Positions 17,435-37,874 of a stretch of DNA of 64,000 nucleotides are shown piece by piece. The notes under the pieces are model-generated. The model was not told the DNA's origin, ran no database searches, and worked only from the letters and a program-made list of their open reading frames with translations. The stretch spans positions 1-64,000 of the forward strand of contig NZ_QREV01000024.1 in the NCBI RefSeq assembly GCF_003363715.1, given 5' to 3'. A program made the position numbers and the translations under genes. The number at the start of each line of letters is the position of its first letter. Positions within the stretch are counted from its first letter, which is position 1. The stretch comes from Parabacteroides acidifaciens (GTDB taxonomy: Bacteria > Bacteroidota > Bacteroidia > Bacteroidales > Tannerellaceae).

Positions 17435-18172
17435 TTATATGACTTTCTCGCATTGCAACACCCAACCTGAATTTCTGAACTTTTTAATGACTCTAACTCT
17501 CTCCCAACCAAATCCTACCTTTTTATGTAACGCAAATTCATCTGTAGAATACACACGCTTTATATTTCCTGATTCGTAAGGCTTAATTTGCCGAGGGACA
17601 AATGTCGGTATATTTCCATACTGTTTACAAGTCGCCGAAAGATGAATATCCTCTCCATTATTACGAAATAAAGGACTTTCCAGTAAAAACATATCAATCC
17701 ATTCTTTCTTGAAGAACCACGAGTTATTGCCAAAGTCAACTTCTTTGTCAACAGTGCAGAAACTATGTTGGAATTCATAACCATCCCCAACAAATACTTC
17801 TGTCTGATTATTCCTGATATTCAACAATCGCCCATTTGGACAAACAATTGCATTTAACCGTTTACTTGTCTCCAATGCTTTTTCCAGAAAGCCAGGACCG
17901 GGAATAATATCATCGTCTATTATATATACATACGAAGTCGTAACATCCTTTACTGATTCGAAACGCCCGAATACCCCCGGATTATCCTCCCAACAAATAT
18001 ACTTTATATGATCCCGATATTTAGAAACAACACTATCCACATTGACATGATGTTGAGTTTGCTGTACCCAAATAACCTGCGGAGATAAGGTCTGTCCCAA
18101 CAATGCCAAAAGTTGTTCTTCCAGATGATCCCGTTTCCAAACAGTAAGAATTGCAGTTATAGTATTATCCAT
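17435..18172 (-). CDS. Glycosyltransferase family 2 protein
   Basis: 245 residues with a GT-A fold start (ITAILTVWKRDHLEEQL) and an acidic metal-binding motif in YIIDDDIIPGPGFLEKA (about 84-100). Downstream are an aromatic-rich acceptor region and NNGEDIHLS. It transfers a sugar from a nucleotide-sugar donor; donor and acceptor are unknown. It is the last gene of the 20-kb peptide/glycosyltransferase operon, seven bases after the GT-methyltransferase fusion. No hairpin terminator was found between it and the rubrerythrin promoter. Confidence 0.82.
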   Translation of the reverse strand: MDNTITAILTVWKRDHLEEQLLALLGQTLSPQVIWVQQTQHHVNVDSVVSKYRDHIKYICWEDNPGVFGRFESVKDVTTSYVYIIDDDIIPGPGFLEKALETSKRLNAIVCPNGRLLNIRNNQTEVFVGDGYEFQHSFCTVDKEVDFGNNSWFFKKEWIDMFLLESPLFRNNGEDIHLSATCKQYGNIPTFVPRQIKPYESGNIKRVYSTDEFALHKKVGFGWERVRVIKKFRNSGWVLQCEKVI

Positions 18173-18178
18173 AAATAT

Positions 18179-19831
18179 TTATATATTACTCCATAAAACA
18201 AATTCTTCTCCTTCTTTTGCAATTGAGGTAAAAGAAAATCGGCTCCTCTTTTTTACTTTTAAACCTTTTACCCAACCGAATAAACTCAAAAAAACAGAAT
18301 CATTAATTTCAATTGGTTCCGGAATAGTCGCCTCATGATAATGAACATGCATCAAAAATCTACAATCAGGTTTTGCCACACGTTGTAGTTCTTTCGCCAC
18401 TTTTTCCAAATTATCAACGTGATCAATTGCATTTACCGATAAAATAACATCAAAAAAATTATCTTCTATTGGTATTTCTTCACCCCCAGATGCCATAAAA
18501 TGTACATTCGGATAGAAACATAATGGGAATCCAGCCTTTTCATAATTTGAAATCAACGGGTCTACACCATAAATTTCAGCTTGCTCAAAACATGTTGCAC
18601 TTGGAATAGGACCACACCCAACATCTAAAACTCTTTTCCCCAAAAAACTATTTCCAGCAACGTCTAAGTCTTTTAAATATTTCGGCTTCTGATGCAATTC
18701 AGTCCATGTCAGAATAGCAGATTGTAAAAGATTGTTCCCGACGATTTTTTGTTCCGGAGAAGGACACGGAGTATTATACAATATTGGCAGATTACCATCA
18801 TACCAAGCTAAATAAGATTGAATCTCCGATTTCCAAAATGCAATTTCTGCATTATGTTTGATCTCTATATTCTGTTCATTAAATAATTTCAATATATCAA
18901 GAATAAAGCCATTCCGTTGCAAATAAGATAAACCGGACTTCATCTCATTCATAACAAACTGCTGTTGTTCTATCGATAAAGACTTAACATATCCAAGCAC
19001 TTTATATGCAAGCTGTTCTGCTATTTTAGTCCAGAACCGACTATTTAACAGCTTGCCACAATGGCAATAAAATATGATTTCACCTATTACGGGATGCCGC
19101 ATATCCTCACTTTCCGGCATATCATTTTCCAATGACTTGAATCTCCGTATCATTTCCAACTGGTATTTTTGCCGGATTTCACGGGCATATTTTTTTTGCT
19201 CCAGTCGATACACACTCGATATCTGAGTCTTATGTATACGATATTGCATTAAGACATCCGGCATATTGACAATTTCGCCTTTTAACGCCAATCGGCAAGC
19301 CAAATCATAATCAGAAGAGTATCTATACCTCTCATCATATCCTCCCAACTCTTTTAACACAGTTGTCCTAATAAATAAAGACGGATGCAGAAAACGATTA
19401 TCTTTTAATAACTGAAGCTGTATATCACAATTTTTCAGCGGTTTCGGATATGTATTATCCATTCCTATACAAATAAACTGGGATCCGCATGCTAACACAC
19501 CCGGATGTCGCTCCATGTATTCAAATTGTTTTTCTATTCTATCAGGGAATGCTATATCATCCGCATCCATTACACAAATATATTTTCCTTTCGCCACACG
19601 CATCCCTTTATTACGGGAAGGATAGTTTCCGATGTTTTCTATATTTCGAAGGCAAACCAGACGTGAATCAAAATAAGTACATAATACGTCCCAACTCCGA
19701 TCCGTAGAAGCATCATCTACCACGATCAGTTCAAAGTTTTCAAATGACTGCCCCAATATGCTATCAACCGCTTCTTCCAAATATGATTCCATATTATATA
19801 CGGGCATTATAACAGATACTTCCGGTTTCAT
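18179..19831 (-). CDS. Glycosyltransferase family 2 fused to an SAM-dependent methyltransferase
   Basis: 550 residues in two enzymes. Residues 1 to about 240 are a GT2 domain (VSVIMPVYNMESYLEEAV, VVDDASTD, CVMDADDIAFPDR). A mostly helical linker of about 150 residues follows. The C-terminal part is a class I methyltransferase with motif I VLDVGCGPIP (about 398-407), acidic motif GVDPLIS and SVNAIDHVDNLEKVAKEL. The fusion suggests that a sugar is attached and then methylated, or that a methylated residue is made on the same acceptor. The GT4 gene upstream overlaps its start by four bases. Substrates are inferred only from the setting with peptide precursors and other glycosyltransferases. Confidence 0.85.
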   Translation of the reverse strand: MKPEVSVIMPVYNMESYLEEAVDSILGQSFENFELIVVDDASTDRSWDVLCTYFDSRLVCLRNIENIGNYPSRNKGMRVAKGKYICVMDADDIAFPDRIEKQFEYMERHPGVLACGSQFICIGMDNTYPKPLKNCDIQLQLLKDNRFLHPSLFIRTTVLKELGGYDERYRYSSDYDLACRLALKGEIVNMPDVLMQYRIHKTQISSVYRLEQKKYAREIRQKYQLEMIRRFKSLENDMPESEDMRHPVIGEIIFYCHCGKLLNSRFWTKIAEQLAYKVLGYVKSLSIEQQQFVMNEMKSGLSYLQRNGFILDILKLFNEQNIEIKHNAEIAFWKSEIQSYLAWYDGNLPILYNTPCPSPEQKIVGNNLLQSAILTWTELHQKPKYLKDLDVAGNSFLGKRVLDVGCGPIPSATCFEQAEIYGVDPLISNYEKAGFPLCFYPNVHFMASGGEEIPIEDNFFDVILSVNAIDHVDNLEKVAKELQRVAKPDCRFLMHVHYHEATIPEPIEINDSVFLSLFGWVKGLKVKKRSRFSFTSIAKEGEEFVLWSNI

Positions 19832-20883
19832 GATACAAGTATTTTATATAGTTGTGACATTGTTATTGATGGTTCGAAACTCATTGCCTTTATTCCCGCT
19901 AAAACAGATAGCTCATTTCGTAACGAACAATTCAGAATCAACTGCTTTAATTCGACATATATAGACTCTTGGTCCCAATCGGCCAACACTCCATATTTAC
20001 CCCCTTCTAATATTTCATCAGCCCCTCCGGAACGTGTAGCCAATACAGGACGTTGCAGACATAAAGCCTCGCAAAGAACCAATGGAGCACCTTCAACCTG
20101 TGATGTCGAAACAAAAATATCTGCTGCCTTTATATAGGGATACGGATTTTTCAAAAAGCCTTTCAAACTAACATAATGCTCCAGTCGATGTTCACCAATA
20201 TATTGTAACAAACTTTCACGCAAATATCCCTCTCCCAAAATCCACACCTGAAAATCCAGTCCTTCCAAAACCAACCTATCAACCACCTGTAACAACAGCA
20301 TATATCCTTTTTCCGGATTTAAACGTCCAACACAACAAACAACCAGTTTCTCCTTTATAGGCACATCCACTTCAGCCTGACGGCAAATGAAATTCCGATC
20401 AATCAAATTAGGCAAGACATGCTGCTCAGACTGAATATCCGGATATAACTTCCCGAACTGTTTTTTCGTATACATAGAGACGAATACAAGTTTATGCATG
20501 GTATTAAAACATCTCTTTTCCTCTTCTTTATTCCGATAGAATTGTTTACACCAATGTAACTTATACAAATCCGTATGTATCCAAGCTATCTTCAATGCAT
20601 TACTTTTCCGGTAAGCAACATATTTAACAGCGACACCTTCTAAAAATGCAATCTCTACGTCATACTGCTTCCTGCGTAATGGATGATTCTTATCTTTAAG
20701 CCCTGCTAACCAAGTAACCTGTTGAGGTATATCATTCCGGTAAATTCCCCGATCAAAAAGGATCAAAAGCGAAACGTTATATAGTTCATAATCAAATCGT
20801 TTCAAGATTTCAATTAATAGATGTTCCGCTCCTCCTCCTTCCAAAGAATCGATACAAAAAAGTATGCTTTTCTTTTTTTCCAT
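19828..20883 (-). CDS. Glycosyltransferase family 4 protein
   Basis: 351 residues of GT-B fold. The N-terminal half opens with SILFCIDSLEGGGAEHLL, the acceptor side typical of GT4. The C-terminal half has VVCCVGRLNPEKGYMLLLQV and the EX7E donor-site motif in EGAPLVLCEALCLQRPVLAT (about 280-299), followed by GGADEIL. It is a retaining transferase using a nucleotide sugar. It starts three bases after the upstream galactosyltransferase-like gene and overlaps the next gene. The cytoplasmic location is inferred from the lack of a signal peptide. Confidence 0.9.
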   Translation of the reverse strand: MEKKKSILFCIDSLEGGGAEHLLIEILKRFDYELYNVSLLILFDRGIYRNDIPQQVTWLAGLKDKNHPLRRKQYDVEIAFLEGVAVKYVAYRKSNALKIAWIHTDLYKLHWCKQFYRNKEEEKRCFNTMHKLVFVSMYTKKQFGKLYPDIQSEQHVLPNLIDRNFICRQAEVDVPIKEKLVVCCVGRLNPEKGYMLLLQVVDRLVLEGLDFQVWILGEGYLRESLLQYIGEHRLEHYVSLKGFLKNPYPYIKAADIFVSTSQVEGAPLVLCEALCLQRPVLATRSGGADEILEGGKYGVLADWDQESIYVELKQLILNCSLRNELSVLAGIKAMSFEPSITMSQLYKILVS

Positions 20884-20886
20884 AAC

Positions 20887-22200
20887 CTAATCCCTCCATG
20901 TCCATGAATGAATATATTGATATAACTCAAGTTGTGTCATTCCACAAATTTTCAGAAACTCTTTTCGGTTCGACACTTCCAGTTCGGGAGTGGCAAAACC
21001 GGAATTTTCATTCCTCGGATGATGTAAATGGAATAAGCAACCAGTAGCCCGATAAACCGGCAAGCCCAATATTTTAATTCTCCGGAATCTCTCGAGGTCT
21101 TCCGGCCCCCAACCATAAAAATTTTCATTTTCTCCTCCAGCATTTAAATACATATATTTATTAACCAGAAAAGCGCCTCCTACAGAATAATCACCAGCCG
21201 GCAATTGGAAATCACCAATATGTCCGATTAATTCCGAGACCATCCCATTATCCGTAAAGTCAATACTTTGGGCTTCTGTAAGTGCACAAAACCGTCCGTC
21301 ATAAGGATAAGCCATCACGGCCTTTCCTGAATGAATCCGTTTTACAGCATCCATGATCTGATATTCCGGTATAATAACATCCGTATCCCAAATTCCAACT
21401 ATAGGACTATGCGCCATTTGTAATAATTGATTCAGATAACGGGTTCGATAAAACACGGGGTCATCATCTTGCACAAATACATATCGAACACAAGGATTAT
21501 CTATTTTCAACTTATACCGAGCTGTCTCATCTGCTTCCAACAAGATAATCTCCTTAAACTTCATTTTACACAAACCTGAAAGCAATACATCCAAATTTCT
21601 TACCCTCTCAGGAGAATCAATACGTAACGGAATTACAATAGAAACATCCGAACCTATTTCTAACAAACATGCAGTCTGTTCCGGGCAAACCCGTTCCGCC
21701 TGCAATCTTTTTAGTTCTTCAATAATACTATCGGGAAAAGTAGTTCCTTCCTCTTGATATTTATTCAATTTATCCAAGACAAGTATCAGATTTTGTTTGT
21801 TATTCAACTCATTTACCATATCCTTATCCCGGACGGACATACCTACCCGATTTCTAAGATAATATATTAATACAGCCAACTGACCGACATCCTGCTTCAA
21901 TATATCAGGAAAAAAACGATAAATGGCAGAATCCAACATGCGAAATAACATTTCGACAGTCCCCTTCAGCCTTTCTTTCCTATATAATGACAATAAAACG
22001 CTTCCCAAACGAACAAGCACATTCGCTTCCCCGTCAGTTTTCTCGCCAACCACTTCTTCAAACTCTGTCAACAACTTTACCGTATGCCGCTCATAACGCT
22101 TGTCTTGCTTTGTACATGCCAAAACATAACAATAGAGAATTCTTTTTACATCCAACCATGAAAGATCCGTTCCTGTTATTTCCAATTCAATATTATTCAT
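20887..22200 (-). CDS. Galactosyltransferase-like glycosyltransferase with unknown N-terminal domain
   Basis: 437 residues. The first 185 residues are helical and match nothing I recognise. From about 190 there is a GT-A domain with WDTDVIIPEYQIMDAVKRI (DxD motif, about 270) and the signature FYGWGPEDLERFRRIKILG (about 365), known from the GT7/GT27-type C-terminal galactosyltransferase domain. HLHHPRNENS follows. It is likely a sugar transferase acting in the cytoplasm. Its start overlaps the end of the C39-like membrane protein gene by eight bases, which supports translation as part of the same operon. Confidence 0.82.
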   Translation of the reverse strand: MNNIELEITGTDLSWLDVKRILYCYVLACTKQDKRYERHTVKLLTEFEEVVGEKTDGEANVLVRLGSVLLSLYRKERLKGTVEMLFRMLDSAIYRFFPDILKQDVGQLAVLIYYLRNRVGMSVRDKDMVNELNNKQNLILVLDKLNKYQEEGTTFPDSIIEELKRLQAERVCPEQTACLLEIGSDVSIVIPLRIDSPERVRNLDVLLSGLCKMKFKEIILLEADETARYKLKIDNPCVRYVFVQDDDPVFYRTRYLNQLLQMAHSPIVGIWDTDVIIPEYQIMDAVKRIHSGKAVMAYPYDGRFCALTEAQSIDFTDNGMVSELIGHIGDFQLPAGDYSVGGAFLVNKYMYLNAGGENENFYGWGPEDLERFRRIKILGLPVYRATGCLFHLHHPRNENSGFATPELEVSNRKEFLKICGMTQLELYQYIHSWTWRD

Positions 22201-23362
22201 ATCTTTCTCTCCTTCTGTAAGCCATATAAACAGACAAAAAAATAGGAACTGTACTCTTTATCGAATGATATTGATAAAGAATATTCGTAACCAACAGAGA
22301 TATCATAGCCGTGAACATTCCAAGCCAGCCATTTGGCCAACACATCCATCCGGCTAATCCTGCATTCAACAACAACAATGTTTTTACCCGTAGTCCTACA
22401 ATCTTTTTTACTTCTTCTATAAACTCAAGTTCTAAACTACTTTTTCCGGAAAAATGTAACTCTTGTCGTGACCGATACTGCCAAATACCATAGATCGTTA
22501 ATGGTATATATAATACATACACAAGTAATAAAAAAGAACTCTGATACAAAGTATAACTAATACCCCCCAAATACAAAACAAAAGCCAGAAATATTTTAAT
22601 AACCATCTGGGGGTATTTTTCCATCGCAAAGTACAATTGAGCCTGTTCGCCATAATTGACACGATTCATCATTATTCTCCAAAAACGGTTAAAACGCTCC
22701 GCTACAAATTGTTTCCATTTCAAATAGGCAACAGAAAAAATGTAATATCCTCCACAAATCAATAATAGAAATCCTAAAAGCATAAAAAAGTTAGAATACC
22801 AAAACCAAATTCCCCAAGCTACTCCTATAGCCAAAACAATACCACACAAGAAAACTATGAAATACTTCCAATCAGACTTTAAATAGAACCTTATATATCT
22901 GTTTATACGTTTTTCCTGATCCTCTTCCCGTTCAAAAGTATCATCCGGGAACACCATCATACAAATACCCTTTATCCACATCAGATCCATTTCATCCGGC
23001 CAATATTGCATTAGCCCCCATGAAGTATCGCCTACGATAAAACGATCGCCATCAAAACCATAATAAACTACAAAATCCTTTTTCCCCTGCTCTGTATCAA
23101 AAAATAAAATCGTCGGCGTATAAATACAACGCAATTTTTCTAACGTCATCTGCATTACTTGACAGTTGAAACCAGATCGCACAAAAGCATTTTTGAGTCC
23201 CTTTAAAGAGACCGTTCCGTTTTTCACATCGCTCCAGCGTTCTAACACCCATATTTCAGGTTTTCCTCCATAAAACCGATTCACAGAAAGTAAGCAAGCG
23301 ACTCCTGTAGAACAATGGTCAGCCAAAGTAAATGTTTGTTTTATGTATTCGTAATCTACCAT
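22193..23362 (-). CDS. Membrane protein with a catalytically degenerate C39-like domain, no ATPase
   Basis: 389 residues. The first 145 look like a C39 bacteriocin-processing peptidase: the string CLLSVNRFYGG (from residue 23) matches the CLRMIAKFYG part of the true peptidase encoded at 33943-36144. At the nucleophile position there is Thr19 (TGVAC instead of CGPSC). The His of HFVVLYG is Asp (DFVVYYG) and the oxyanion Gln is missing. Only the Asp of VGDTSWG remains. Cys17 two residues earlier could be an alternative nucleophile if the loop is rearranged. About six TM segments follow (about 165-225, 255-300 and 335-370), as in an ABC exporter membrane domain, but the protein ends without a nucleotide-binding domain. 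It may hold leaders or act as a partner of the exporter. It overlaps both neighbouring genes. Confidence 0.75.
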   Translation of the reverse strand: MVDYEYIKQTFTLADHCSTGVACLLSVNRFYGGKPEIWVLERWSDVKNGTVSLKGLKNAFVRSGFNCQVMQMTLEKLRCIYTPTILFFDTEQGKKDFVVYYGFDGDRFIVGDTSWGLMQYWPDEMDLMWIKGICMMVFPDDTFEREEDQEKRINRYIRFYLKSDWKYFIVFLCGIVLAIGVAWGIWFWYSNFFMLLGFLLLICGGYYIFSVAYLKWKQFVAERFNRFWRIMMNRVNYGEQAQLYFAMEKYPQMVIKIFLAFVLYLGGISYTLYQSSFLLLVYVLYIPLTIYGIWQYRSRQELHFSGKSSLELEFIEEVKKIVGLRVKTLLLLNAGLAGWMCWPNGWLGMFTAMISLLVTNILYQYHSIKSTVPIFLSVYMAYRRRERYE

Positions 23363-24702
23363 TATACTATCGAATTTATATAAGGAGTTAACGTATCCGG
23401 AGTTTCCTCCATTCTTTGCTTCATTTTCTGAAGATTCTCTTTATACATAAGATAAGAAGAACATATCTTCTTTATTTTTTGGTAGATTGTAATCGGAGAA
23501 TCCTTGGATATATTGCCTTTCAAACCTAATTTATGAAAAACAACACGGGCTGCATTCCCCGGTTGGTCCCAATTACGGTTTAAAGGATATACCAACATGG
23601 GAACTTGCCGATAGATACACTCAGTTATACTGTTCATTCCCCCATGAGTAATCATTAAATCACAATATTGAAGTAAATGGAATTGAGGAACCTGTCTAAG
23701 AATCAACATGTTTTCAGGAAGTGGCAACAAAGAATTATGCAAGAACATCTTTCCTACGGAACAAACAAAGAATAAACTACTGTCAGTAAATGCTACTTTT
23801 CTAATTTTACTAAAAAAACGGATCACTTTTTTCTTATCCGTATCCCCCAATGTTCCTAAAGAGCAATAAATCACAAATACTTTACCTTCTACACGCAAAA
23901 ATTGTAGTCTTTCTGTCAAAGCAGAATAGCGAGGAACAAACAAATGAATATCCCGATTCTCTTTTGCAGGAGAAAAAAAAGTTAACAAGTTTCGTTCTAT
24001 AGATGGAAAATCGAAAACAATCGGAGAAATAATAAGCTCCGTATATCCACTTAATTCCACACGAGAGACTGTATATCGGTTGCTTTCAATATATTTAGAA
24101 AGCGGATAATGACTTAAATTCGCTAATATGGTTACATTAGTAAAATAATTATTTGAAGAATAAAACAAACGCAGTATCCACTGATGAACATGATACCTAA
24201 GATGATACATTTTCCATAAAAGTTCACTTTTCAAAATACCTTTTCTCGTATAAGAAGGTAGACTTTCATAACAAACTGGTGCAATATAAGGATATTTATA
24301 TGTACTTACCATCGATTGTAATCGAACTATATGATTACATATATCATTATATATTACAGTTTTATAAAAATGGTGTGAATCCAGTAAAATCAAATCCGGA
24401 TGGAAAAGTTCACTTATTTGCTTATAACTCCGGAACATTTCCCTTAACAACCTTTTTCTTTTCAATACTGAAAAAGAGAAAATAGACGACCAAATACCGC
24501 TTAATCTCCTTTTTGCTTCAAACAATATCAAAGTATCAATATCAACTATATATGTTTCAAAACCACAACTTGCTATCATCTTTTGATAAGAGCCACCACA
24601 TACATATATAACACGATTTTCTTTTGACAAATGCTTTGCCAAAAGAAAAGTCGCATTATAATGACTTATTGCCGGATAGATATCAAATATAATAGTAGCC
24701 AT
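23362..24702 (-). CDS. Glycosyltransferase family 1 (UGT/macrolide transferase-like)
   Basis: 446 residues of GT-B fold. The C-terminal donor-binding signature is clear: THGGMNSITECIYRQVPMLV, then YPLNRNWDQPGNAARV (about 350-390), as in UDP-glycosyltransferases that decorate small molecules, natural products or lipids. The N-terminal acceptor half starts TIIFDIYPAISHYNATFLLA. The coding strand is AT-rich compared with the first operon. The last base of this gene overlaps the first base of the C39-like gene. A diverged relative lies at the other end of the operon (36141-37169). The natural-product type of this family fits a tailoring role on a peptide, which is inference. Confidence 0.85.
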   Translation of the reverse strand: MATIIFDIYPAISHYNATFLLAKHLSKENRVIYVCGGSYQKMIASCGFETYIVDIDTLILFEAKRRLSGIWSSIFSFSVLKRKRLLREMFRSYKQISELFHPDLILLDSHHFYKTVIYNDICNHIVRLQSMVSTYKYPYIAPVCYESLPSYTRKGILKSELLWKMYHLRYHVHQWILRLFYSSNNYFTNVTILANLSHYPLSKYIESNRYTVSRVELSGYTELIISPIVFDFPSIERNLLTFFSPAKENRDIHLFVPRYSALTERLQFLRVEGKVFVIYCSLGTLGDTDKKKVIRFFSKIRKVAFTDSSLFFVCSVGKMFLHNSLLPLPENMLILRQVPQFHLLQYCDLMITHGGMNSITECIYRQVPMLVYPLNRNWDQPGNAARVVFHKLGLKGNISKDSPITIYQKIKKICSSYLMYKENLQKMKQRMEETPDTLTPYINSIV

Positions 24703-28556: not shown

Positions 28557-28589
28557 TTTGAAGTGGAGAAAAGAATTCTCCACTTCAAA
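28557..28589 (-). terminator. Intrinsic terminator after the 46-residue precursor
   Basis: A perfect 14-bp stem (tttgaagtggagaa at 28557-28570 with 28576-28589) and a five-base loop. On the minus strand it is followed by TTTTTT. It lies three bases after the precursor stop and 20 bases before the maturase start, so partial read-through would give much more precursor mRNA than maturase mRNA. Confidence 0.9.
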
Positions 28590-28592: not shown

Positions 28593-28733
28593 TCACATAA
28601 AGCCACTGTAACAATTTATTGTACATGCAGCACAACCCATTCCACCTTCAACCTCTTCCATCTCATTTTCAAGTAATTCGGAAACATCCAAATCTTTTTC
28701 CTGAGGCTGATTGTTCAAATCTTGTGTATCCAT
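28593..28733 (-). CDS. Double-glycine-leader RiPP precursor peptide, 46 residues
   Basis: A small gene with start at 28733. The acidic leader of 31 residues ends in the double-glycine motif MEEVEGG (LDVSELLENE before it), typical of substrates of C39 peptidase exporters. The predicted core is MGCAACTINCYSGFM: 15 residues with three Cys in the spacing CX2CX3C. The C39 exporter encoded at 33943-36144 should cut after Gly31. The radical SAM/SPASM enzyme encoded immediately downstream would install bridges from the Cys residues. A strong hairpin terminator follows the stop. Its leader resembles that of the second precursor (31780-31953) in having an LxxxELLE-type helix and a terminal GG. It is not a known peptide to me. 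The leader type resembles the Bacteroidales GG-leader natural-product precursors. Confidence 0.88.
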   Translation of the reverse strand: MDTQDLNNQPQEKDLDVSELLENEMEEVEGGMGCAACTINCYSGFM

Positions 28734-28758
28734 AGTAGTACAAGAATTTATAAATTAC

Positions 28759-29301
28759 CTACTCTATATGGTTTTCGGTATCCCCACTCGATTCTATATA
28801 TAAATATTGCATAAGGAGCAATTTAGTGATAACAGCTATTATTTTCCGTAATAAATCATTTCTGTCAACGGATCTGTTAGCCTCCAATATATCCTCAACC
28901 AGCTCCATCCCCGTAAAAGACTGCCTTCCGTAACAAATCCGTATAAAGAAATCTGTCCATAAATTATAAGGTTCACAAAAGATGATCTTTTGTTCAGTAT
29001 ACAATGTCGAAAATGAAAATATCACATTTACTTTCTTCCTTTCCAACATCCCAACTAACCGCTCGTCTATTTCCAGATTATATATTTTGATAAAACTATT
29101 CACACGTAGCTTCACATTAAGCAGATAACTTTCAAAATCCCCTCTTTTCAACAGTGATAATGCTGTTTTCGCATTATTCTGCTCAAACAAACGATAAAAA
29201 GAGCTACACAAATTATCTATTTCCAGTCTGTATTGCTCAATAGCCTCATTAAGCATCTTCCGATCCAAATGGCAAAACTGTATGTTGCATCGTCCTTTCA
29301 T
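28759..29301 (-). CDS. Hypothetical protein, 180 residues, in precursor cassette B
   Basis: I do not recognise this protein. It is a mostly helical, soluble-looking protein (no signal peptide or TM segment) with EQYRLEIDNLCSSFYRLFEQ near the start and an aromatic patch EPYNLWTDFFIRICYGRQ at about 110-127. It starts one base after the stop of the glycosyltransferase-like gene and ends 25 bases before the 46-residue precursor. This position suggests an accessory role in making or recognising that peptide, or immunity to it. Its composition is as AT-rich as its neighbours from 27 to 30.2 kb. Confidence 0.7.
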   Translation of the reverse strand: MKGRCNIQFCHLDRKMLNEAIEQYRLEIDNLCSSFYRLFEQNNAKTALSLLKRGDFESYLLNVKLRVNSFIKIYNLEIDERLVGMLERKKVNVIFSFSTLYTEQKIIFCEPYNLWTDFFIRICYGRQSFTGMELVEDILEANRSVDRNDLLRKIIAVITKLLLMQYLYIESSGDTENHIE

Positions 29302-29302: not shown

Positions 29303-30160
29303 TTATCTATTATTGAGGAATTTAACTATACGATCATAATACTCAGGATACTCATAATATAACCTCTGTCCCATCATATAGCAAAGCATACTATTTTGTT
29401 TATGGTACCCGATAACATGTATAAATTTACAAGAATGCGGTACAGAGCTAAACCTGACCAGTTCTTTAAAAGAATCGCTAATCCCATCCAACAAATACTC
29501 AACGGGACAAGATTTATTCTTTGCCAAAGAATAATAAATATATTGTTCAAAAACATTATTTACAATTGAAACTTCTTTCTTAGTTAATTGAGATATAATA
29601 TCATAATTAACATCTATAAAACGAAACACTTTTTCAGTATAATCTTTAAAAAACTCTATGTTACAGCCACCAACTATACCTAAATTTGATTCATTAACAA
29701 CCGAATCATTTTCCGGTTTCATAAAACTATCATATTTTATACCTCTTTCTATCAAATCAAAAAAAGATTTTCTATTATAGGAATAATTATATTCAAAATG
29801 TTGAGCAATAAGCTGAGATGATTCTATTCTATTAGGAAATTTATTCCAAATGAAAATATCATTATCTACATGGATAAAAGGTTCATTTTGCAAACTATAT
29901 GTATAAATCTTACCTAATGCCCATAAACCTTCATCATAATGATCTATATCATTTAGACATACTTGAACCGATGTATAGGGAAGTCGTAATTTATTTATCA
30001 ATAAATCATATCCAGCCCTATCGGTAACAAGCTCAACCTTATCATAAAATTCAAGCAGTTTCAGACAGCTAAGTGTCCAACTTATATAATGGAATACAGG
30101 ATCATACCAACCTCCACTACCTTGAAATGGTTTCGACCAAAAACTTTGTATAATCTTCAT
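29303..30160 (-). CDS. Glycosyltransferase-like protein (DUF6734-type)
   Basis: 285 residues. The GT-A-like pattern includes SWTLSCLKLLEFYDKVELVT near the N-terminus, a metal-binding-like acidic motif FIHVDNDIFIWNKFP (about 95-109) and later NLGIVGGCNIEFFKDY, which together resemble nucleotide-sugar transferases. I believe it matches the family labelled DUF6734, but this is from memory. No signal peptide. It is the first gene of the AT-rich cassette B (transferase, 180-residue protein, 46-residue precursor, maturase), and an 87-base gap separates it from the upstream maturase gene. It would most likely glycosylate the peptide or another acceptor in the cytoplasm. Confidence 0.7.
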   Translation of the reverse strand: MKIIQSFWSKPFQGSGGWYDPVFHYISWTLSCLKLLEFYDKVELVTDRAGYDLLINKLRLPYTSVQVCLNDIDHYDEGLWALGKIYTYSLQNEPFIHVDNDIFIWNKFPNRIESSQLIAQHFEYNYSYNRKSFFDLIERGIKYDSFMKPENDSVVNESNLGIVGGCNIEFFKDYTEKVFRFIDVNYDIISQLTKKEVSIVNNVFEQYIYYSLAKNKSCPVEYLLDGISDSFKELVRFSSVPHSCKFIHVIGYHKQNSMLCYMMGQRLYYEYPEYYDRIVKFLNNR

Positions 30161-30247: not shown

Positions 30248-31756
30248 CTAATAGCCTAAATTATTTATCATTTTAGGAGATATTAAACATCGAGGATCCG
30301 GAAAATCCCAATATTTTTTACCATATGCTTTTACAATATCACTCCAACATCTATTCCGATACTGGAAGCAGGAATTAAAAAGAGTACAATTTTTACAAGT
30401 ACTCGTTTTTTGTATTTCTTTTTGAGACAAATTGACTAACCTGATAGAGCGGGGAGAGTTCCATATTTCCTTTAAGTAATCAATAGTAGCATCACCTATA
30501 ATAAAAGATGGATGCCAATATAACTGTTCGCAGATAGTGGCCTGCCCATCCGGCAAAATAAACAAATGCGTATTCAAGGCTGAACAACTACTACCCTCGA
30601 AATAACGGCTTCCACCATCCGTCTGATGGAATTTTTGTTGCCGGAACGATTCATTCAACAATATAGTAAAAGGGGATGCCGGAATAATAAATTCCTGTAT
30701 ATAATCGAACAACCCGATAAGTTCCTCATAAGAAGGTTTGATTTTCTTCATTTCTCCAGGAGCCACATGCAAAGAATTGCTGACCGGAACAATCCGCCAG
30801 TCAGACAAATTTTCCAGCGTTAAAAGAAACCGAAACAAATCTGTCAGAACATGGCAGTTGCAATTATAAGTAGAAACGACTGTCGATACCTGATAATCAA
30901 AACCGCTTTGATCCAACAACCGCAGGCCATGTTCCATGTTTTGCCAATAAGTATCTGACACCCGTAGCGATTCTTGTAATACAGAAGATGAAACCGCATC
31001 AAGAGAAACCTGGATAATATGGCTGTAACCGGTCTTACGCAAGCGTTCCAATAACTCTGCTGTAAAAGGTATTTTAGTTGATAAATATCCCGGTGCAATA
31101 TCCCGTCGGACAAGTTCCTTCAATATAACCTCCCAATCCGGACGCAAAAAAACTTCCCCTCCGATCAAAGCAACCTGTTGTACCTGCAAATCTGCCGCTT
31201 CCTGTATCAATGCCAATATACGAGAAGCCGGAAGCAAATGCCTTACTTTTGTTTTAGTATCCGCATAACAGTATTTACAATGTGTTACACATTGATTGGT
31301 CAACATAAATGTCAACAACAACGGACCAGAATAAAGACGCCGTGAAAACAAATCCAATTTTCCGCATACGAAATTATCCGGCTTCAACTGTATAAATTGA
31401 AAATCATTTCCTGCATCTTCCTTTCTAATCAGAATTTTTTTAGGAAATACTATTTTTTGCCCATTCCATACGGTATAAACCGGAGATTCATTTTCCAAAT
31501 AAAGATCCAAAAGACGTTCCATATAGGTTACGTCCCGGTGAAAGAAATTAGCCAACGCCTCAATGTTTTCCTGCAAAGTCCTGTTATAGGTAAAAAAACT
31601 TAGCAAAATAGCTTGAAGAGGGTGAATAAAGGATTGCCAGTCTTTGGAACAGTCCACACCGTGTCGTATCCTGGAAAAAAGTATAATACGATATACATCG
31701 TTCCTCAACACATAACACGGATTCAAAACATATATATGATTCTTTCGCTGTACCAT
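30248..31756 (-). CDS. Radical SAM/SPASM peptide maturase (cassette A)
   Basis: 502 residues with the same layout as the enzyme at 27064-28536. The shared N-terminal domain (about 1-115) is followed by a radical SAM core with CVTHCKYCYADT (CX3CX2C, about 152-163) and ALIGGEVFLRPDW. The SPASM-like region has CX12GX4C (ILPDGQATICEQLYWHP), CX2CX5CX6C (CKNCTLFNSC) and a last Cys. It should bind three iron-sulfur clusters and form bridges in the 57-residue precursor encoded 23 bases upstream. Base composition is close to 40 percent GC in a sampled line, unlike the AT-rich partner, so the two maturases probably entered the locus separately. Confidence 0.9.
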   Translation of the reverse strand: MVQRKNHIYVLNPCYVLRNDVYRIILFSRIRHGVDCSKDWQSFIHPLQAILLSFFTYNRTLQENIEALANFFHRDVTYMERLLDLYLENESPVYTVWNGQKIVFPKKILIRKEDAGNDFQFIQLKPDNFVCGKLDLFSRRLYSGPLLLTFMLTNQCVTHCKYCYADTKTKVRHLLPASRILALIQEAADLQVQQVALIGGEVFLRPDWEVILKELVRRDIAPGYLSTKIPFTAELLERLRKTGYSHIIQVSLDAVSSSVLQESLRVSDTYWQNMEHGLRLLDQSGFDYQVSTVVSTYNCNCHVLTDLFRFLLTLENLSDWRIVPVSNSLHVAPGEMKKIKPSYEELIGLFDYIQEFIIPASPFTILLNESFRQQKFHQTDGGSRYFEGSSCSALNTHLFILPDGQATICEQLYWHPSFIIGDATIDYLKEIWNSPRSIRLVNLSQKEIQKTSTCKNCTLFNSCFQYRNRCWSDIVKAYGKKYWDFPDPRCLISPKMINNLGY

Positions 31757-31779: not shown

Positions 31780-31953
31780 CTAATATATTCCTCCCAAAAA
31801 ACATCCTAACCCGCAATTCGCCAAATCTTCGTCATTCTCGATGCCACCTTGTATTTCCAGCAGTTCATCCAAATTCAGAAACTCTTCCACGGAATCTGCC
31901 GCTTTGTTGTCTGCCACCTTCGGCAGTTCTTCCTTAAACTGATTTTTTTTCAT
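31780..31953 (-). CDS. Double-glycine-leader RiPP precursor peptide, 57 residues
   Basis: The frame is open from 32019, but the start at 31953 (MKKNQFKEELPKV) gives a normal leader and overlaps the upstream glycosyltransferase stop by 20 bases. The leader is 37 residues, acidic and helical (SVEEFLNLDELLE), and ends in the double-glycine cleavage motif IQGG. The predicted core is IENDEDLANCGLGCFLGGIY: 20 residues with two Cys in CX3C spacing and Gly-rich turns. A second GG near the end (FLGG) could be an alternative cut but would leave only two residues. The C39 exporter should process it, and the radical SAM/SPASM protein encoded 23 bases downstream is its likely maturase. The core differs from that of the 46-residue precursor. 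Confidence 0.88.
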   Translation of the reverse strand: MKKNQFKEELPKVADNKAADSVEEFLNLDELLEIQGGIENDEDLANCGLGCFLGGIY

Positions 31954-32788: not shown

Positions 32789-32790
32789 AT

Positions 32791-33930
32791 TTATTTTCGT
32801 TTAAAGATTTCATATAAGGGTGTGAATATCCGCTTCAAGACACTCTTACTTGCCATAATAATTTCAGCCTGACCAGACAACCCCGTTTCATAATCGATTG
32901 TCTCACCTACCGATGTTACCAACTTATCAGGAAAAGCGACCTCGACAGCATAACTCTTATTGTAAGGAACATAAGAGACAGACGCTATCTTCCCTACCAC
33001 ATATCCGTAAGTATGTACCGGAAACTTGGCCAGTTCCACCTGCACAAGATCTCCCTGTTCTATACCACCAACTTCACTCTCTGCCAAAAACAATCTTCCA
33101 ATCGGTTTCCCTCTCGAACCGGAAACTACCGAACAGACTGTATCTCCTTTATGAACTACCGTCCTACGGCTCCAACTTTTACCCAACAGGAGTATACCAT
33201 CCGTCTTACTTTTGATCATATATCTACTTTCCCAGGTTTTCAAACTGTTCACCATATTCTCATAAGCCAGTTCCAACATCCGGCGGTTCTTCTGTATTTC
33301 CATCTTATGTGTAATATCCAGTTCGAATAATTCTCTTTTAAGTTGAAGAATCGCCAATCCGTTTTTATCATCCAATTCCGTTTGCAACCTAAGTTCCTCC
33401 TGCAAAAACGCTTTTCTCTGCGGATACAGATCCAACTCCTGATAGGCCAGACAGGTACGAACAGCTTGGGTAAACTGTTCATAAGCACCAGACATTTCAC
33501 CCATAATCAGGTCAAACGGATAATTTTTCAGATACCGGATATCATTCGTACGGTAATACCATTCTACGCAAGTCAATACCTGGCAAAACCGTTTTACATC
33601 TGTCAACGAAGCCGGATTTTGGATGATCCCCAGTGTATCATTCTTTTTTACAGAAGCGCGATCTTCCACAAAAAAACGATCGACCAACCCATCACTATTA
33701 GCTGTTATCCATTCCGCATTCGAACGGTCGTCGATAACAACAGAAGACTGTACTACATCCGGATATTCGAATAAAGCAGTTCCTACCAGCAAAAGCACAA
33801 TCAACCCATATATGATATAACTTCCCGTATGGATAAGCCAACCCGGAGCATCCCCCAGTATATCGTTGTTTTCACGGCTATACAGTTCGATTTTGTCCGC
33901 TTCTGTTTTCTGTTCATATAAAACTTCCAT
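32791..33930 (-). CDS. HlyD-family secretion adaptor protein
   Basis: 379 residues. A single N-terminal TM segment (about 35-57) is preceded by a cytoplasmic tail, then a lipoyl-like half (NAEWITANSDGLVDRFFVED), a coiled-coil hairpin (about 160-240, rich in Glu, Lys and Gln) and the second half with DGILLLGKSWSRRTVVHKGD and beta-barrel strands. This is the type-I-secretion or bacteriocin-export adaptor that spans the periplasm. It follows the C39 exporter by 12 bases, as in many peptide exporters. No TolC gene lies in this operon; the outer-membrane exit could be the TolC-type protein encoded at 10897-12372, another TolC, or the beta-barrel protein in this operon. Confidence 0.9.
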   Translation of the reverse strand: MEVLYEQKTEADKIELYSRENNDILGDAPGWLIHTGSYIIYGLIVLLLVGTALFEYPDVVQSSVVIDDRSNAEWITANSDGLVDRFFVEDRASVKKNDTLGIIQNPASLTDVKRFCQVLTCVEWYYRTNDIRYLKNYPFDLIMGEMSGAYEQFTQAVRTCLAYQELDLYPQRKAFLQEELRLQTELDDKNGLAILQLKRELFELDITHKMEIQKNRRMLELAYENMVNSLKTWESRYMIKSKTDGILLLGKSWSRRTVVHKGDTVCSVVSGSRGKPIGRLFLAESEVGGIEQGDLVQVELAKFPVHTYGYVVGKIASVSYVPYNKSYAVEVAFPDKLVTSVGETIDYETGLSGQAEIIMASKSVLKRIFTPLYEIFKRK

Positions 33931-33942: not shown

Positions 33943-36144
33943 TTAAGCGTTCAACTCCAATTGATTTCTTACCAGCCGGAAATAATCTCCTTGTTGGGCA
34001 ATCAATTCCGCATGTGTTCCTTTCTCTGCTATAGTCCCGTCTTTCAGTACCACTATCTGATCGGCATTCTTCACCGTACTCAACCTGTGAGCGACAATTA
34101 CAACCGTCCTATCATGAAAGAAACGATCCAGATTCGACTGTATCACCCTTTCATTATCAGTATCTAAAGCATTGGTCGCCTCATCAAAAAATAGATAATC
34201 AGGATTTCTGTAAATAGCTCGTGCTATCAAAAGCCGCTGCTTCTGTCCCTGGCTAAGTCCCTGTCCGGAACTTCCAATGCGGCTGTTATATTTCAAAGGT
34301 AAAGACTCTATAAAATCTTGTATATTTGCCATTTTTACAGCATACAACAGACGTTCCCGATCTATCTGTTCAGAACCCGGCGCAATATTGTTAGCAATCG
34401 TATCATTGAATATGAACCCTTCTTGCATCACAACTCCACAATGTTTACGCCAGTCTTTAAAACTCATGTTCTGTAACGAACAGTCTCCGATTCGTACCGT
34501 ACCATCAGTCGGTGGATAAAATCCTAACATCAGTTTCAGTAAGGTTGTTTTTCCACTCCCGCTTAACCCAACAATAGCAGTCGTTTTCCCATAGGGAATA
34601 TCCAATGTCAACTCCTTGATTATTTTCTTCGATTTACCGGAACCATATGCAAATGAAACAGCATCCAACCGGATCGGCTGTCGTAGTTGTAACTGGTCTG
34701 TAATCCCCATTTCCTGAACTTCCTCATCTGGCTTACCATGAATTTCCCCAAGACGTTCAATACTGAGCCTGGCATCCTGTGTCTGCTGTACAAATGAAAC
34801 CATCTGTTCAATAGGTCCTTGCATCTGCCCGATAATATACTGAATAGAAAGCATAGCGCCCAATGTTATATTACCATCTAAGACTGCAGTAGCTGAAGTT
34901 ACAGTAATCAGGATATTTTTGATTTCATTAATCAAGACCGCCCCTACTTGTTGCCACTGTCCCAGGTTCAATGAACTCATGTTGGTACGGAACAAGGTTG
35001 CCTGTATGTTTTCCCATTCCCAGCGCTTCTGTTGTTCACATCCCAACAGTTTTATATCCTGCATGCCGTAAATCATCTGCATAACGTTATCTTGGTTAAC
35101 GGACATCTGCTCAAAATTCTTCCGGTTCAGATCAGCTCGTTTTTTCATAAACAGTTGTATCCACAAAAGATACAAGACACTGAAAAATAAAAAAACCAGA
35201 AATATTTTCCAATCATATATAGCCAATACGCTTCCGAATATCAGAATTGTGAGAGTAGCAAATAAAATACTCAGTACAGATTGCGTCAAAAACAATTCGA
35301 TACGTTTATGATCTTCAATACGTCGGATCAAGTCTCCAGCCATTTTGCTATCGAAAAAGCGCATTGGCAAACGCATCAGTTTTGCCAGAAAGTCGGAAAT
35401 TAACGCAATATTGACACGGCTACTGATATGTAAAAGAATAAAACGCCGGATCACTTCAATCAGTGTACGGCTAAAAATCAAAACTAATTGTGCAATCAGT
35501 ATTAATTGAATAAAATTAAGGTTGCGGTGTCCTATTCCTTGATCTACAATCGTTTGGGTCAAAAACGGAAAAATCAGTTGCAAAACACTTCCTCCCAGCA
35601 TCCCCAACAACAACTGGACAATCATCTTCCGGTAAGGACGTACATATTTCAACAGATACCACAGGGAAAGTTTGTCATATTCCGCCGGATCCGTACTATA
35701 AAATTGAGGAGTCACCTCCAACTGCATGGCAATTCCCTTTTCTATACCCCCCTGCCGGGTACTGATCCAGCACTTTTTAAATTCCTCTTCTTCATATTTA
35801 AGTAAACCATAGGCAGGATCGGCTATATAGAAATAACTTTTTCCTCTTTTAGTCCTGACACCATAAAGAACAACAAAATGTTGTTGATTCCAGTGCAGAA
35901 TACAAGGAAACTTGGACTGCTCTTTCAGCTTTGCCAAAGTCGTACGTACACCCGTTGCACGCATTCCAATACTCTCGGCAGCCTCGCTAATACCTAACAG
36001 ATTTACCCCTGTACGCTGTATAAAAGACTGGTCACGTAACTGCTGTACGGAAAAACTCTTCCCATAAAATTTAGCAATCATCCTAAGACAACTTGGTCCG
36101 CAGTCCATTGCATCCAATTGCCGATAAAAAGGAAAACGTTTCAT
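33943..36144 (-). CDS. Peptidase-containing ABC exporter (C39 PCAT)
   Basis: 733 residues in the standard order. The C39 peptidase (1 to about 130) has the catalytic set Gln9, Cys15 (MDCGPSC), His89 (QQHFVVLYG) and Asp109 (IADPAYG). A six-TM exporter domain spans about 165-450. The nucleotide-binding domain (about 490-733) has Walker A GLSGSGKTT, signature LSQGQKQR, Walker B LFFDEATNALD and switch VAHRLSTV. It cuts double-glycine leaders in the cytoplasm and exports the core peptide. Both small precursors in this operon carry such leaders. Overlaps the upstream glycosyltransferase gene by four bases. Confidence 0.96.
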   Translation of the reverse strand: MKRFPFYRQLDAMDCGPSCLRMIAKFYGKSFSVQQLRDQSFIQRTGVNLLGISEAAESIGMRATGVRTTLAKLKEQSKFPCILHWNQQHFVVLYGVRTKRGKSYFYIADPAYGLLKYEEEEFKKCWISTRQGGIEKGIAMQLEVTPQFYSTDPAEYDKLSLWYLLKYVRPYRKMIVQLLLGMLGGSVLQLIFPFLTQTIVDQGIGHRNLNFIQLILIAQLVLIFSRTLIEVIRRFILLHISSRVNIALISDFLAKLMRLPMRFFDSKMAGDLIRRIEDHKRIELFLTQSVLSILFATLTILIFGSVLAIYDWKIFLVFLFFSVLYLLWIQLFMKKRADLNRKNFEQMSVNQDNVMQMIYGMQDIKLLGCEQQKRWEWENIQATLFRTNMSSLNLGQWQQVGAVLINEIKNILITVTSATAVLDGNITLGAMLSIQYIIGQMQGPIEQMVSFVQQTQDARLSIERLGEIHGKPDEEVQEMGITDQLQLRQPIRLDAVSFAYGSGKSKKIIKELTLDIPYGKTTAIVGLSGSGKTTLLKLMLGFYPPTDGTVRIGDCSLQNMSFKDWRKHCGVVMQEGFIFNDTIANNIAPGSEQIDRERLLYAVKMANIQDFIESLPLKYNSRIGSSGQGLSQGQKQRLLIARAIYRNPDYLFFDEATNALDTDNERVIQSNLDRFFHDRTVVIVAHRLSTVKNADQIVVLKDGTIAEKGTHAELIAQQGDYFRLVRNQLELNA

Positions 36145-37169
36145 ATCATCCGTTCTTTTCTATTGACCAATTCTTCCAGCCAACTTATCACATAATGTAC
36201 CTGTTTGCTTTTCCGGTTAAACAGTTCAGACATCCTGTTCATTTTAGCTGTTATATCGTCTTTATTTTGTAAAAGAGTTTGTATTTGGTTTCTAAAATCA
36301 TCCACTGTACCGCATTTGCAGTCCATTTGCAATCCCAAACCATGATACACCATACGAGCAGTATTTTCAGCTTGTACTTTTGTAACCGGAAGTAATAAAA
36401 CCGGCAAACTATGATAAATGCAACTGACCAGCATATCCAAATCGCCATTCGTAACCAGCAAATCCCCTGAAGCCGTCAACCGACGGGAAGTATCGGACAA
36501 ATAAAACTGCATATTTACCGGTAAAGGAAAGAGCCGGTTAAGCCAGTCTTTACTGTTGGAACACACAATAATTTCATACTGTGGATATTGTAAACAAAAA
36601 TCTTTCACCAACTCATAGAAATGAAAACCGATATTAATATTTTCCGTCATTTCCGTTACAATAAACAAGGATAGCTTCGAATTCTGTTTTTTATATCGGG
36701 ACATACGTCCGGCCAATAATTCTTCTCTTTTCGATAGCACTTTCTCACTTATATTACCAATATCAAGCAATGGCCCGGCACACACCAACCAACCATCCGA
36801 CTGATCCTGGTAATCAAGCGGTGAAGGTGCTAAAAACAACAATGGGAAATCCTTCGATACATTTTGTTTATCGCCAAACCATAAACCCAGGTAGATAATC
36901 CGGATATTCCGGTTCCTATAAAACCCAATCCGATTCTCCAAGCGTCTATCCAACAATACCAAGTCCGGTTTAAACCAACGGAAATCGCCTGGATAGAGCA
37001 CACGCCCAATTCCTTTTTGCAGCAGATAAAAAGTAAATGCCGAATCAGATGAATCTGTATAATAAACTTCATGTCCTTCCTCATTCAACAGACAAGCAAG
37101 CTGTATGGTCAGTTTAACATCCGTATCGACGGGTAATATGTCAAAAAGGAATGAACTCATATAACTCAA
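36141..37169 (-). CDS. Diverged GT-B glycosyltransferase (GT1-like)
   Basis: 342 residues. The C-terminal half resembles the GT1 donor site but is altered: VTNGDLDMLVSCIYHSLPVL replaces the THGGMNS-type motif of the paralogue at 23362-24702, so the usual His-Gly-Gly is missing. The later part is retained (PVTKVQAENTARMVYHGLGL). The N-terminal half starts FLFDILPVDTDVKLTIQLAC, similar to the start of the paralogue. It may be a weak or inactive transferase, or one with another donor. It overlaps the small HTH gene upstream and the exporter gene downstream by four bases each. Confidence 0.75.
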   Translation of the reverse strand: MSYMSSFLFDILPVDTDVKLTIQLACLLNEEGHEVYYTDSSDSAFTFYLLQKGIGRVLYPGDFRWFKPDLVLLDRRLENRIGFYRNRNIRIIYLGLWFGDKQNVSKDFPLLFLAPSPLDYQDQSDGWLVCAGPLLDIGNISEKVLSKREELLAGRMSRYKKQNSKLSLFIVTEMTENINIGFHFYELVKDFCLQYPQYEIIVCSNSKDWLNRLFPLPVNMQFYLSDTSRRLTASGDLLVTNGDLDMLVSCIYHSLPVLLLPVTKVQAENTARMVYHGLGLQMDCKCGTVDDFRNQIQTLLQNKDDITAKMNRMSELFNRKSKQVHYVISWLEELVNRKERMI

Positions 37170-37444
37170 TTATCAGCCGATTCAAAACAATATTTTTCTT
37201 GACAAACGGAACAACGTTTGTTTCCCAGAATAGAACACAAGTCGTTGTCGCCATAATAATAAGTTTCCCGGTATTCATCATACCGTACATCCACCATTAA
37301 TTCATTACGCAAATAAGCCAGATACTCAAAAAAAGTAGCTCTGGACAGTTCAAGCCTCCGGGCAAGTTTGCCCGGAGTACCTGTACATTCACGTTGGATC
37401 AAAGAATCCATATACAACAATTTCTTCAAATCAACGTACTTCAT
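37166..37444 (-). CDS. Small winged-helix DNA-binding protein
   Basis: 92 residues. The helix-turn-helix part GTPGKLARRLELSRATFFEY (about 22-41) is followed by YLRNELMVDVRYDEYRETYYYG, the wing pattern seen in HTH_11-type domains of WYL-like regulators, but no ligand domain is attached. The C-terminus has CSVCQEKYC (with another Cys upstream), which could bind a metal. It is the second gene of the operon, so it may autoregulate it. No N-terminal signal. The HTH call is good; the cluster-regulator role is inference from position. Confidence 0.75.
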   Translation of the reverse strand: MKYVDLKKLLYMDSLIQRECTGTPGKLARRLELSRATFFEYLAYLRNELMVDVRYDEYRETYYYGDNDLCSILGNKRCSVCQEKYCFESADN

Positions 37445-37484
37445 AATAATTGAAAATTAGTGAATTATAAATCAATCAGTCAAT

Positions 37485-37874
37485 CTATTTGGCAAAATCA
37501 CCATAAAGATACCCTCCCCACTGATTTCTTAGTTCAAGCGTATAGGTCCCTTTTTCCCAATCAACAACGGATATTCCGATATTAGCTGTCTGTGCAGCAG
37601 GAACGGTTTTTTCGTAAATAATACTTCCATTCTTTACTATAGTAATAGTAATGTCGGAACGAAGAGTCGAGCTTTGGACAAATAAGAGGTCGCTCGTAAT
37701 ATAAGCAGAAACAGGTACAATCAGAGAAATACTTCTTTCAGTTTCATTCCAATGACCTTCCACTTCTATTTTTACAGGAGTTTGTTCTGCATATCCCATA
37801 ACCATTAATGTATTCAATACTGCTATAAGCATTACTCGTATGACCCATGTCATAATTGTCTTGTTTATTTCCAT
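37485..37874 (-). CDS. DUF3244-type secreted small protein
   Basis: 129 residues with a hydrophobic N-terminal export segment (about 8-28) and a beta-rich domain (KIEVEGHWNETERSISLIV, then TYTLELRNQWGGYLYGDFAK at the C-terminus). The pattern is like the DUF3244 family of Bacteroidales periplasmic or surface proteins, a call made from memory of the C-terminal motif. It is the first gene of the long operon, just after a well-formed promoter. Its role with the peptides is unknown; it could be unrelated to maturation or serve in immunity. Confidence 0.65.
   Translation of the reverse strand: MEINKTIMTWVIRVMLIAVLNTLMVMGYAEQTPVKIEVEGHWNETERSISLIVPVSAYITSDLLFVQSSTLRSDITITIVKNGSIIYEKTVPAAQTANIGISVVDWEKGTYTLELRNQWGGYLYGDFAK

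Follow-up and report, generated by a model that had tools for sequence, protein, structure and literature searches.

The 64,000-nt stretch of Parabacteroides acidifaciens DNA analyzed here (hereafter the window; positions 1 to 64,000 of contig NZ_QREV01000024.1, RefSeq assembly GCF_003363715.1) carries a gene island encoding two small peptide precursors, the two radical S-adenosylmethionine (rSAM) enzymes paired with them, an exporter, and a set of glycosyltransferase (GT)-like proteins (Table 1). The open reading frame (ORF) listing and translations place 19 minus-strand genes at 17435-37874, rather than the 18 of the original prediction, which was right about their tight packing (junctions of -20 to +87 nt). 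A twentieth minus-strand gene, for a tetratricopeptide repeat (TPR) protein, extends the run beyond 37874, with a spacing of 176 nt from the DUF3244 gene; because both this gene and the edge of the insertion described below lie beyond it, 37874 was rejected as a boundary.

Table 1. Genes and other features of the island. GG, double-glycine; HTH, helix-turn-helix; PCAT, peptidase-containing ABC transporter; RRE, leader-binding domain of ribosomally synthesized and post-translationally modified peptide (RiPP) systems; TM, transmembrane; UGT, UDP-glycosyltransferase.
Feature	Position	Strand	Basis
GT2-like protein, 245 aa (weak)	17435-18172	-	Pfam Glyco_tranf_2_3 23 bits, cut-off 27
GT2 fused to methyltransferase, 550 aa	18179-19831	-	Pfam 122.7 and 47.2 bits
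GT4 glycosyltransferase, 351 aa	19828-20883	-	Pfam 86.3 bits
Glyco_transf_7C-type glycosyltransferase, 437 aa	20887-22200	-	Pfam 27.6 bits, cut-off 23
Degenerate C39 domain with hydrophobic C-terminal part, 389 aa	22193-23362	-	Pfam C39 44 bits
UGT/GT1-like glycosyltransferase, 446 aa	23362-24702	-	Pfam UDPGT 33.7 bits, cut-off 19.5
CarboxypepD_reg domain and putative outer-membrane barrel, 780 aa	24710-27052	-	N-terminal domain alone above Pfam cut-off
rSAM1, radical SAM/SPASM, pairs with precursor 1	27064-28536	-	Pfam above cut-off
Terminator-like hairpin, 14 pairs then T run, between precursor 1 and rSAM1	28557-28589	-	-22.2 kcal/mol, z -5.58
Precursor 1, GG leader, predicted core MGCAACTINCYSGFM after GG	28593-28733	-	Translation; homologous cores in other loci
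DUF805b RNA (RF02914), upstream of precursor 1	28756-28788	-	37.7 bits, gathering 35.6
180-aa protein, RRE-like predicted fold, DUF6734 partner	28759-29301	-	
DUF6734, predicted glycogenin-like GT-A-fold glycosyltransferase	29303-30160	-	319.8 bits to DUF6734; predicted fold
rSAM2, radical SAM/SPASM, pairs with precursor 2	30248-31756	-	Pfam above cut-off
Precursor 2, GG leader, predicted core IENDEDLANCGLGCFLGGIY after GG	31780-31953	-	Translation; CGLGC precursors in 9 other loci
GT2 glycosyltransferase, 284 aa	31934-32788	-	Pfam 124.6 bits
HlyD-like membrane-fusion adaptor	32791-33930	-	48.9 bits to TIGR01843, below curated cut-off
C39 peptidase ABC exporter (PCAT)	33943-36144	-	C39, ABC membrane and ATPase domains above Pfam cut-off
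UGT-like protein, 342 aa (weak)	36141-37169	-	Pfam 18.1 bits, cut-off 19.5; homologs in L097, L100, L108
Small HTH-like protein, 92 aa	37166-37444	-	Weak matches only
DUF3244 protein, N-terminal signal-like segment	37485-37874	-	Pfam 77.3 bits; hydropathy
TPR protein, hydrophobic N-terminus, one TM segment, weakly HTH-like C-terminus (E 0.039)	38051-39910	-	
Bacteroidetes-type promoter pattern, exact match, 22 nt before TPR gene	39933-39962	-	

Both GG precursors and both rSAM/SPASM proteins of the original prediction are present, although its single Cys-bridged product gives way to a pair of precursors that have separate rSAMs. The predicted core of precursor 1 contains three Cys and that of precursor 2 contains two; the possibility that the precursors are chance ORFs was rejected, as both cores recur beside related rSAM genes in other taxa. 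The rSAM CX3CX2C motif and seven further C-terminal Cys, invariant in five aligned homologs, are present in both window rSAMs. Compared with NCBIfam precursor families, precursor 1 matched only TIGR03949 (14.7 bits, cut-off 21.5) and precursor 2 had no match at E 1; rSAM1 and rSAM2 scored far below the maturase equivalog cut-offs, none of which was reached among the best 25 of 40 and 25 of 59 matches, and the sole model above cut-off among those listed was the SPASM domain TIGR04085 (rSAM1, 33.8 vs 27 bits). A Pfam search at E 10 found no RRE in the rSAM N-termini. SPASM enzymes perform several chemistries; thioether bridging is plausible here, and Cys bridging of the peptides is a guess.

An initial contig scan with rSAM1 as sole query confirmed no relative; an rSAM alignment search then yielded 80 named loci (the best 80 of 108, designated by L numbers), some of them short or clipped at contig ends, so that homolog counts are lower bounds. 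Profiles matched an rSAM ORF in at least 79 of these loci, the barrel in 63, PCAT in 56, HlyD in 31, TPR in 21, DUF3244 in 12, HTH in 10, DUF6734 in 7, the 180-aa protein in 5, and UGT in 2 (L097 additionally has a UGT by BLAST). A six-frame scan of 81 sources for GG or GA followed by CGLGC (I, V or M allowed for L) found matches in 10, every one a precursor: the window and L087, L092, L097, L100, L102, L106, L108, L110 and L111. The nine related loci are from Bacteroides or Phocaeicola and carry the precursor-rSAM pair, with rSAMs 46-56% identical to rSAM2. Wherever the stretch reaches far enough, in six of the nine loci, the CGLGC precursor comes with genes for TPR, DUF3244 and HTH, and the other three stretches start inside or after this block; the fullest order, TPR-DUF3244-HTH-(UGT)-PCAT-HlyD-precursor-rSAM, occurs in L100, L102 and L106. 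A second core type, CxxCxxxCY, is encoded in the window, L032, L033, L090 and L111 (two in L111).

In an rSAM tree, the 10 CGLGC rows fall on one side of a branch, opposite the other labelled group (SH-aLRT 99), and the four placeable rSAMs of the CxxCxxxCY loci group together. The tree was of a quick kind in which five long rows leave deep nodes unsure; rSAM ORFs no longer than 420 aa were left out of it (in L111, two ORFs make up the split rSAM1 homolog), as were the duplicates L012-L014. Judged from gene content, the window island combines two conserved RiPP cassettes: cassette A, comprising TPR-DUF3244-HTH-UGT-PCAT-HlyD and the CGLGC-core precursor with its rSAM, and cassette B, comprising DUF6734, the 180-aa partner, and the CxxCxxxCY-core precursor with its own rSAM. 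Since L111, a Bacteroides metagenome-assembled genome (MAG), holds both cassettes together, the window is not alone in pairing the two precursors. Several observations count against so tidy a division, however: in the 12-row set around rSAM2, the six-frame scan gave no CGLGC precursor for L090_5136 and L086_9920; four of the eight rows grouped around rSAM1 have other cores; and gene order varies, with UGT, PCAT and HlyD after the rSAM in L097, another precursor-rSAM-barrel set in between in L092, and no PCAT seen in the L087 stretch.

The predicted C39 exporter is complete, with three domains above cut-off and the aligned catalytic Cys, His and Asp present; it is 72-81% identical in eight of the nine related CGLGC loci. 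Given the GG leaders, a PCAT that retains its catalytic residues, and precursor-rSAM pairs that other genomes conserve, export and rSAM modification of the peptides are well supported at the level of sequence. The proposed HlyD adaptor and outer-membrane barrel hold in part: the former matches TIGR01843 and has homologs (55-61% identical) in CGLGC loci but scores below the curated cut-off and lacks a Pfam match at 0.01, whereas in the latter CarboxypepD_reg exceeds its cut-off and the barrel itself is putative (only a SusC-homolog domain in the PDB, E 0.031). The 389-aa C39-like protein was considered as a second normal C39 peptidase and rejected, its catalytic positions being replaced: the alignment, read by eye, shows T/S/D in place of the catalytic Cys and D/E in place of the catalytic His in all four members, three of which are short standalone homologs that directly follow rSAM2-like genes (in L100, L108 and L111). 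It is thus a probable pseudo-peptidase that probably binds leaders without cutting them, although altered catalysis is possible because a Cys two positions before the catalytic site is kept in 4/4 members. Across the order, and leaving the window aside, 10 of 393 genomes had matches to this protein, covering only N-terminal parts of longer frames.

The island is flanked by genes for rubrerythrin (16720-17298) and a SulP transporter (40534 onward), 23,235 bp apart in the window. The comparison of gene order with other Parabacteroides, proposed as a check in the original prediction, found that in 19 of 37 other genomes from the genus these genes are divergent neighbors with a gap of only 56-269 bp; among the remaining 18, one flank gene was not found (5), the two were on separate contigs (9), or they were otherwise arranged on the same contig (4). 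The unit at 17.4-39.9 kb is therefore an insertion between rubrerythrin and SulP, a site that may be an insertion hot spot. The island was probably acquired horizontally, because its exporter is closer in sequence to Bacteroides/Phocaeicola homologs (72-81% identity) than to those of a P. distasonis record (54-55%). Composition tells against this in part: GC content per 2-kb step is 30-41% in the island, 46-57% in the left flank and 33-47% in the right flank, such that the island is marked off on the left only. That a recently acquired cluster is decaying or silent, with no functional product, would fit both the distance of rSAM1 from its closest relatives in the 37 other genomes (36% identity at most) and the split ORFs of related MAG loci L100 and L111; however, all 20 window genes are open in translation and retain the PCAT catalytic residues and conserved rSAM Cys, and we regard this explanation as very improbable. 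Locus L113 (G013), at the same chromosomal site, has a different, smaller insertion between rubrerythrin and SulP, including a short ORF like the N-terminus of the window TPR protein (46% over 35 aa). In the window, the flank before the SulP gene (40286-40415) contains nested inverted repeats with 41-nt arms that are 78% complementary.

Eight GT-like genes had been claimed, of which five exceed a Pfam GT cut-off and two fall below (17435-18172 and 36141-37169), DUF6734 being assigned by predicted fold only; the claimed methyltransferase domain is present, fused to GT2. The predicted structure of DUF6734 has a GT-A fold with a DxD-type motif, and the protein is a predicted glycosyltransferase similar to glycogenin. 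The fold predicted for its 180-aa partner tentatively resembles that of the RRE (a PqqD-like winged helix that binds leaders), and at two further loci a homolog of this partner forms a domain of the DUF6734 protein itself, which is the best hint of a sugar on the peptide. Glycosylation of the peptide is thus supported only indirectly, because the predicted DUF6734 enzyme adjoins precursor 1 together with an RRE-like partner, a homolog of which is fused to DUF6734 elsewhere. Two findings weigh on the other side: the addition of L015/L016 to the C-terminal-domain profile lowered the hhalign probability from 94 to 5, and the predicted core 2 is without Ser or Thr, so that sugars there would need Cys, Asn or Tyr. 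Searched against PDB sequences, the profiles of DUF6734 and of the 180-aa protein gave nothing above chance level, and a search of 123 genomes of the family with the 180-aa protein yielded, apart from the window itself, a single marginal match that contains stops (E 8.2e-4). Glycocins use a C39-type exporter; GT2 proteins are present in the window, and no glycocin model appeared among the best 25 of 50 and 25 of 27 NCBIfam matches. No description of DUF6734 was found in the open-access literature, most subscription papers lying outside the search.

Action of all eight GTs on the peptide was rejected as too strong a claim. An alternative is that the two rSAM peptides are made and exported while the GTs build a cell-surface or protein-linked glycan and merely share the island. 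It would accommodate the core 2 composition, the occurrence of DUF6734 also without a PCAT nearby, and the fact that profiles of three of the five downstream-end GT-like genes (17435-24702), namely GT4, the GT7C type and the 245-aa protein, found only themselves among 86 sources. The GT genes nevertheless overlap or abut genes of the peptide system, including the C39-like gene, whose homologs in L100, L108 and L111 come after rSAM2-like genes; UGT homologs lie within CGLGC loci L097, L100 and L108; an RRE-like domain accompanies DUF6734, either as a partner or by fusion; and Pfam matches in the cluster include no flippase, polymerase or initiating transferase. We consider a separate glycan unlikely. 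As for the Glyco_transf_7C type, L118 also encodes a PF02709 protein, there with DUF6734 on one side and a PCAT on the other. L122 (8107-11074) encodes three Cys-rich proteins that resemble one another, next to a DUF6734 gene and to genes for a pyruvyl transferase, a DxD glycosyltransferase and a VKOR-thioredoxin protein, possibly a different glycoprotein system; in L070 (10881-12563), a single protein with GT2 and LanC-like domains is encoded between an rSAM and a PCAT.

The TPR protein is likely a regulator, and the small HTH-like protein has homologs in eight of the nine related CGLGC loci. Such genes raise the possibility that the products are peptide signals sensed by the TPR/HTH proteins and not antibacterials, a reading that concerns role only and overlaps with the one we favor below. 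The constant company of TPR, DUF3244 and HTH genes with the CGLGC precursor points toward signaling, as do the TM segment and HTH-like C-terminus of the TPR protein and the lack of any immunity family among the cluster Pfam matches. However, the HTH assignment of that C-terminus is weak, and bacteriocin clusters also carry regulators. The PCAT may itself confer immunity, as argued in the available part of Fernandez-Cantos et al. (2023; PMC10352776), and on balance we hold a signaling role in place of an antibacterial one to be somewhat unlikely.

The promoter pattern before the TPR gene occurs twice in the whole window against 3.24 expected, and terminator-like sites in the region number 8 against 11.7 in shuffles, neither being above chance. 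The strong hairpin after precursor 1 fits partial termination favoring precursor over enzyme, and because of it the run 17435-37874 may not be one uniform transcript. Measured from the AGAGTAGG of the precursor, the end of the DUF805b RNA lies 24 nt upstream of precursor 1, and in L090 its position is the same. Scanning 83 sources for the exact pattern gave 17 DUF805b sites, of which 11 precede a small GG ORF, 22-28 nt from its start (L041 and L042 are near-identical records); DUF805b or a close pattern match precedes GG precursors in the window, L032, L040, L041, L045, L063, L081, L090, L096 and L111. The other six sites are in L043, L069, L058, L060, L066 and the minus strand of L040 (the last looks like chance), those of L043 and L069 being next to precursor-like sequence without a standard start, or beside Ns. 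In L058 and L060, inspection by eye shows a DUF805b-like site followed by a hairpin-like repeat, with no precursor directly after, hinting at attenuation.

As assessed by script and by eye, the DUF805b stem varies in paired fashion (AGC/GCU, GGC/GCC, UGG/CCA and CCC/GGG). Whereas the Rfam RF02914 consensus has one stem, the sites before GG precursors in the window and related loci suggest a second helix between loop (N-CC) and tail (GG-N), possibly forming an H-type pseudoknot outside the Rfam model; its outer pair, parsed in 15 of 19 sites, is A-U in five, G-C in three, U-A in three, U-G in one, and unpaired in three. Caution comes from RNAalifold, which on A5 gave the second (pseudoknot) helix and not the Rfam stem, so that model R1 mainly scores sequence, and from the R1 matches at E 0.01 or better, 10 of 18 being its own training rows. 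No description of DUF805b RNA was found in the literature searched.

Taking these findings together, we favor, with somewhat more confidence than doubt, a system producing two rSAM-modified, exported peptides, of which precursor 1 is glycosylated via DUF6734, and we infer its chemical steps, GT substrates, export route, regulation and biological role as follows. The Cys-containing cores of precursors 1 and 2 would be altered by rSAM1 and rSAM2, respectively. The RRE-like 180-aa protein would deliver precursor 1 to DUF6734, which would add the first sugar, and some of the other GTs together with the fused methyltransferase could elaborate the glycan. The degenerate C39-like protein would bind leaders; the C39-ABC exporter would cleave after GG and, with HlyD, carry the products across the inner membrane, and the barrel protein would sit in the outer membrane. 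The TPR, DUF3244 and HTH proteins would regulate the operon, with the hairpin keeping precursor above enzyme. Glycogenin acts on Tyr, and by analogy the sugar site of DUF6734 is possibly the Tyr of the CxxCxxxCY core; this site is not general, because the core of DUF6734 locus L041 is without Tyr. More tentatively, and as a proposal we consider rather doubtful in its entirety, DUF6734 and its partner would constitute a leader-guided, glycogenin-type peptide glycosyltransferase acting on an rSAM-modified precursor within a two-peptide system, with a DUF805b pseudoknot controlling precursor synthesis.

DUF6734, a Pfam family of unknown function, thereby gains a candidate function, and with its RRE-like partner it offers a concrete candidate enzyme pair for placing sugar on an rSAM-modified peptide; if true, the leader-guided reading would establish glycosylated rSAM peptides as a class in gut Bacteroidota. 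The analysis also delimits two types of precursor found repeatedly among gut bacteria and suggests a possible regulatory target of the orphan Rfam RNA DUF805b. The secreted modified peptides could serve gut competition or signaling.

Glycocins (available parts of PMC12139839 and PMC12457901) are likewise ribosomal peptides bearing sugar, which for the window peptides is a prediction; unlike them, the window GTs stand with two rSAMs, are of DUF6734 and UGT types, and accompany Gram-negative-type export. Sactipeptides and ranthipeptides share a SPASM rSAM beside Cys-containing precursors, but thioether bridging is putative in the window, and rSAM1 and rSAM2 are far below the listed maturase cut-offs. 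The RRE-glycosyltransferase fusions in the available part of PMC12710340 resemble the pairing of DUF6734 with an RRE-like protein, although the transferase there is PF00535 and the name DUF6734 is absent from the main text of that paper. The open-access literature (most subscription papers lay outside the search) provided no description of the window system beyond the Bacteroidales clusters of PMC10352776, in which GG precursors occur with PCATs and rSAM. The original prediction of a combination undescribed in Bacteroidales was accordingly only partly right: as described in the available part of that paper, BGC3 has rSAM, LanC-like and glycosyltransferase genes within the GG/PCAT setting, and BGC9 carries a glycosyltransferase and a methyltransferase. 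The window shares with those clusters a GG precursor, an rSAM maturase, a C39 exporter, TPR genes and, as in some of them, a fusion protein and an outer-membrane protein; GG precursors, PCAT catalytic residues and an rSAM/SPASM gene beside a precursor are all found. It differs from what that part describes in pairing precursor with rSAM twice over, in its eight GT-like genes and degenerate C39 protein, and in carrying DUF6734 alongside an RRE-like protein, with no LanC, YcaO or LanM domain among its Pfam matches. The GG/PCAT/rSAM kind of cluster is thus already known in Bacteroidales, and the window holds a new variant of it.

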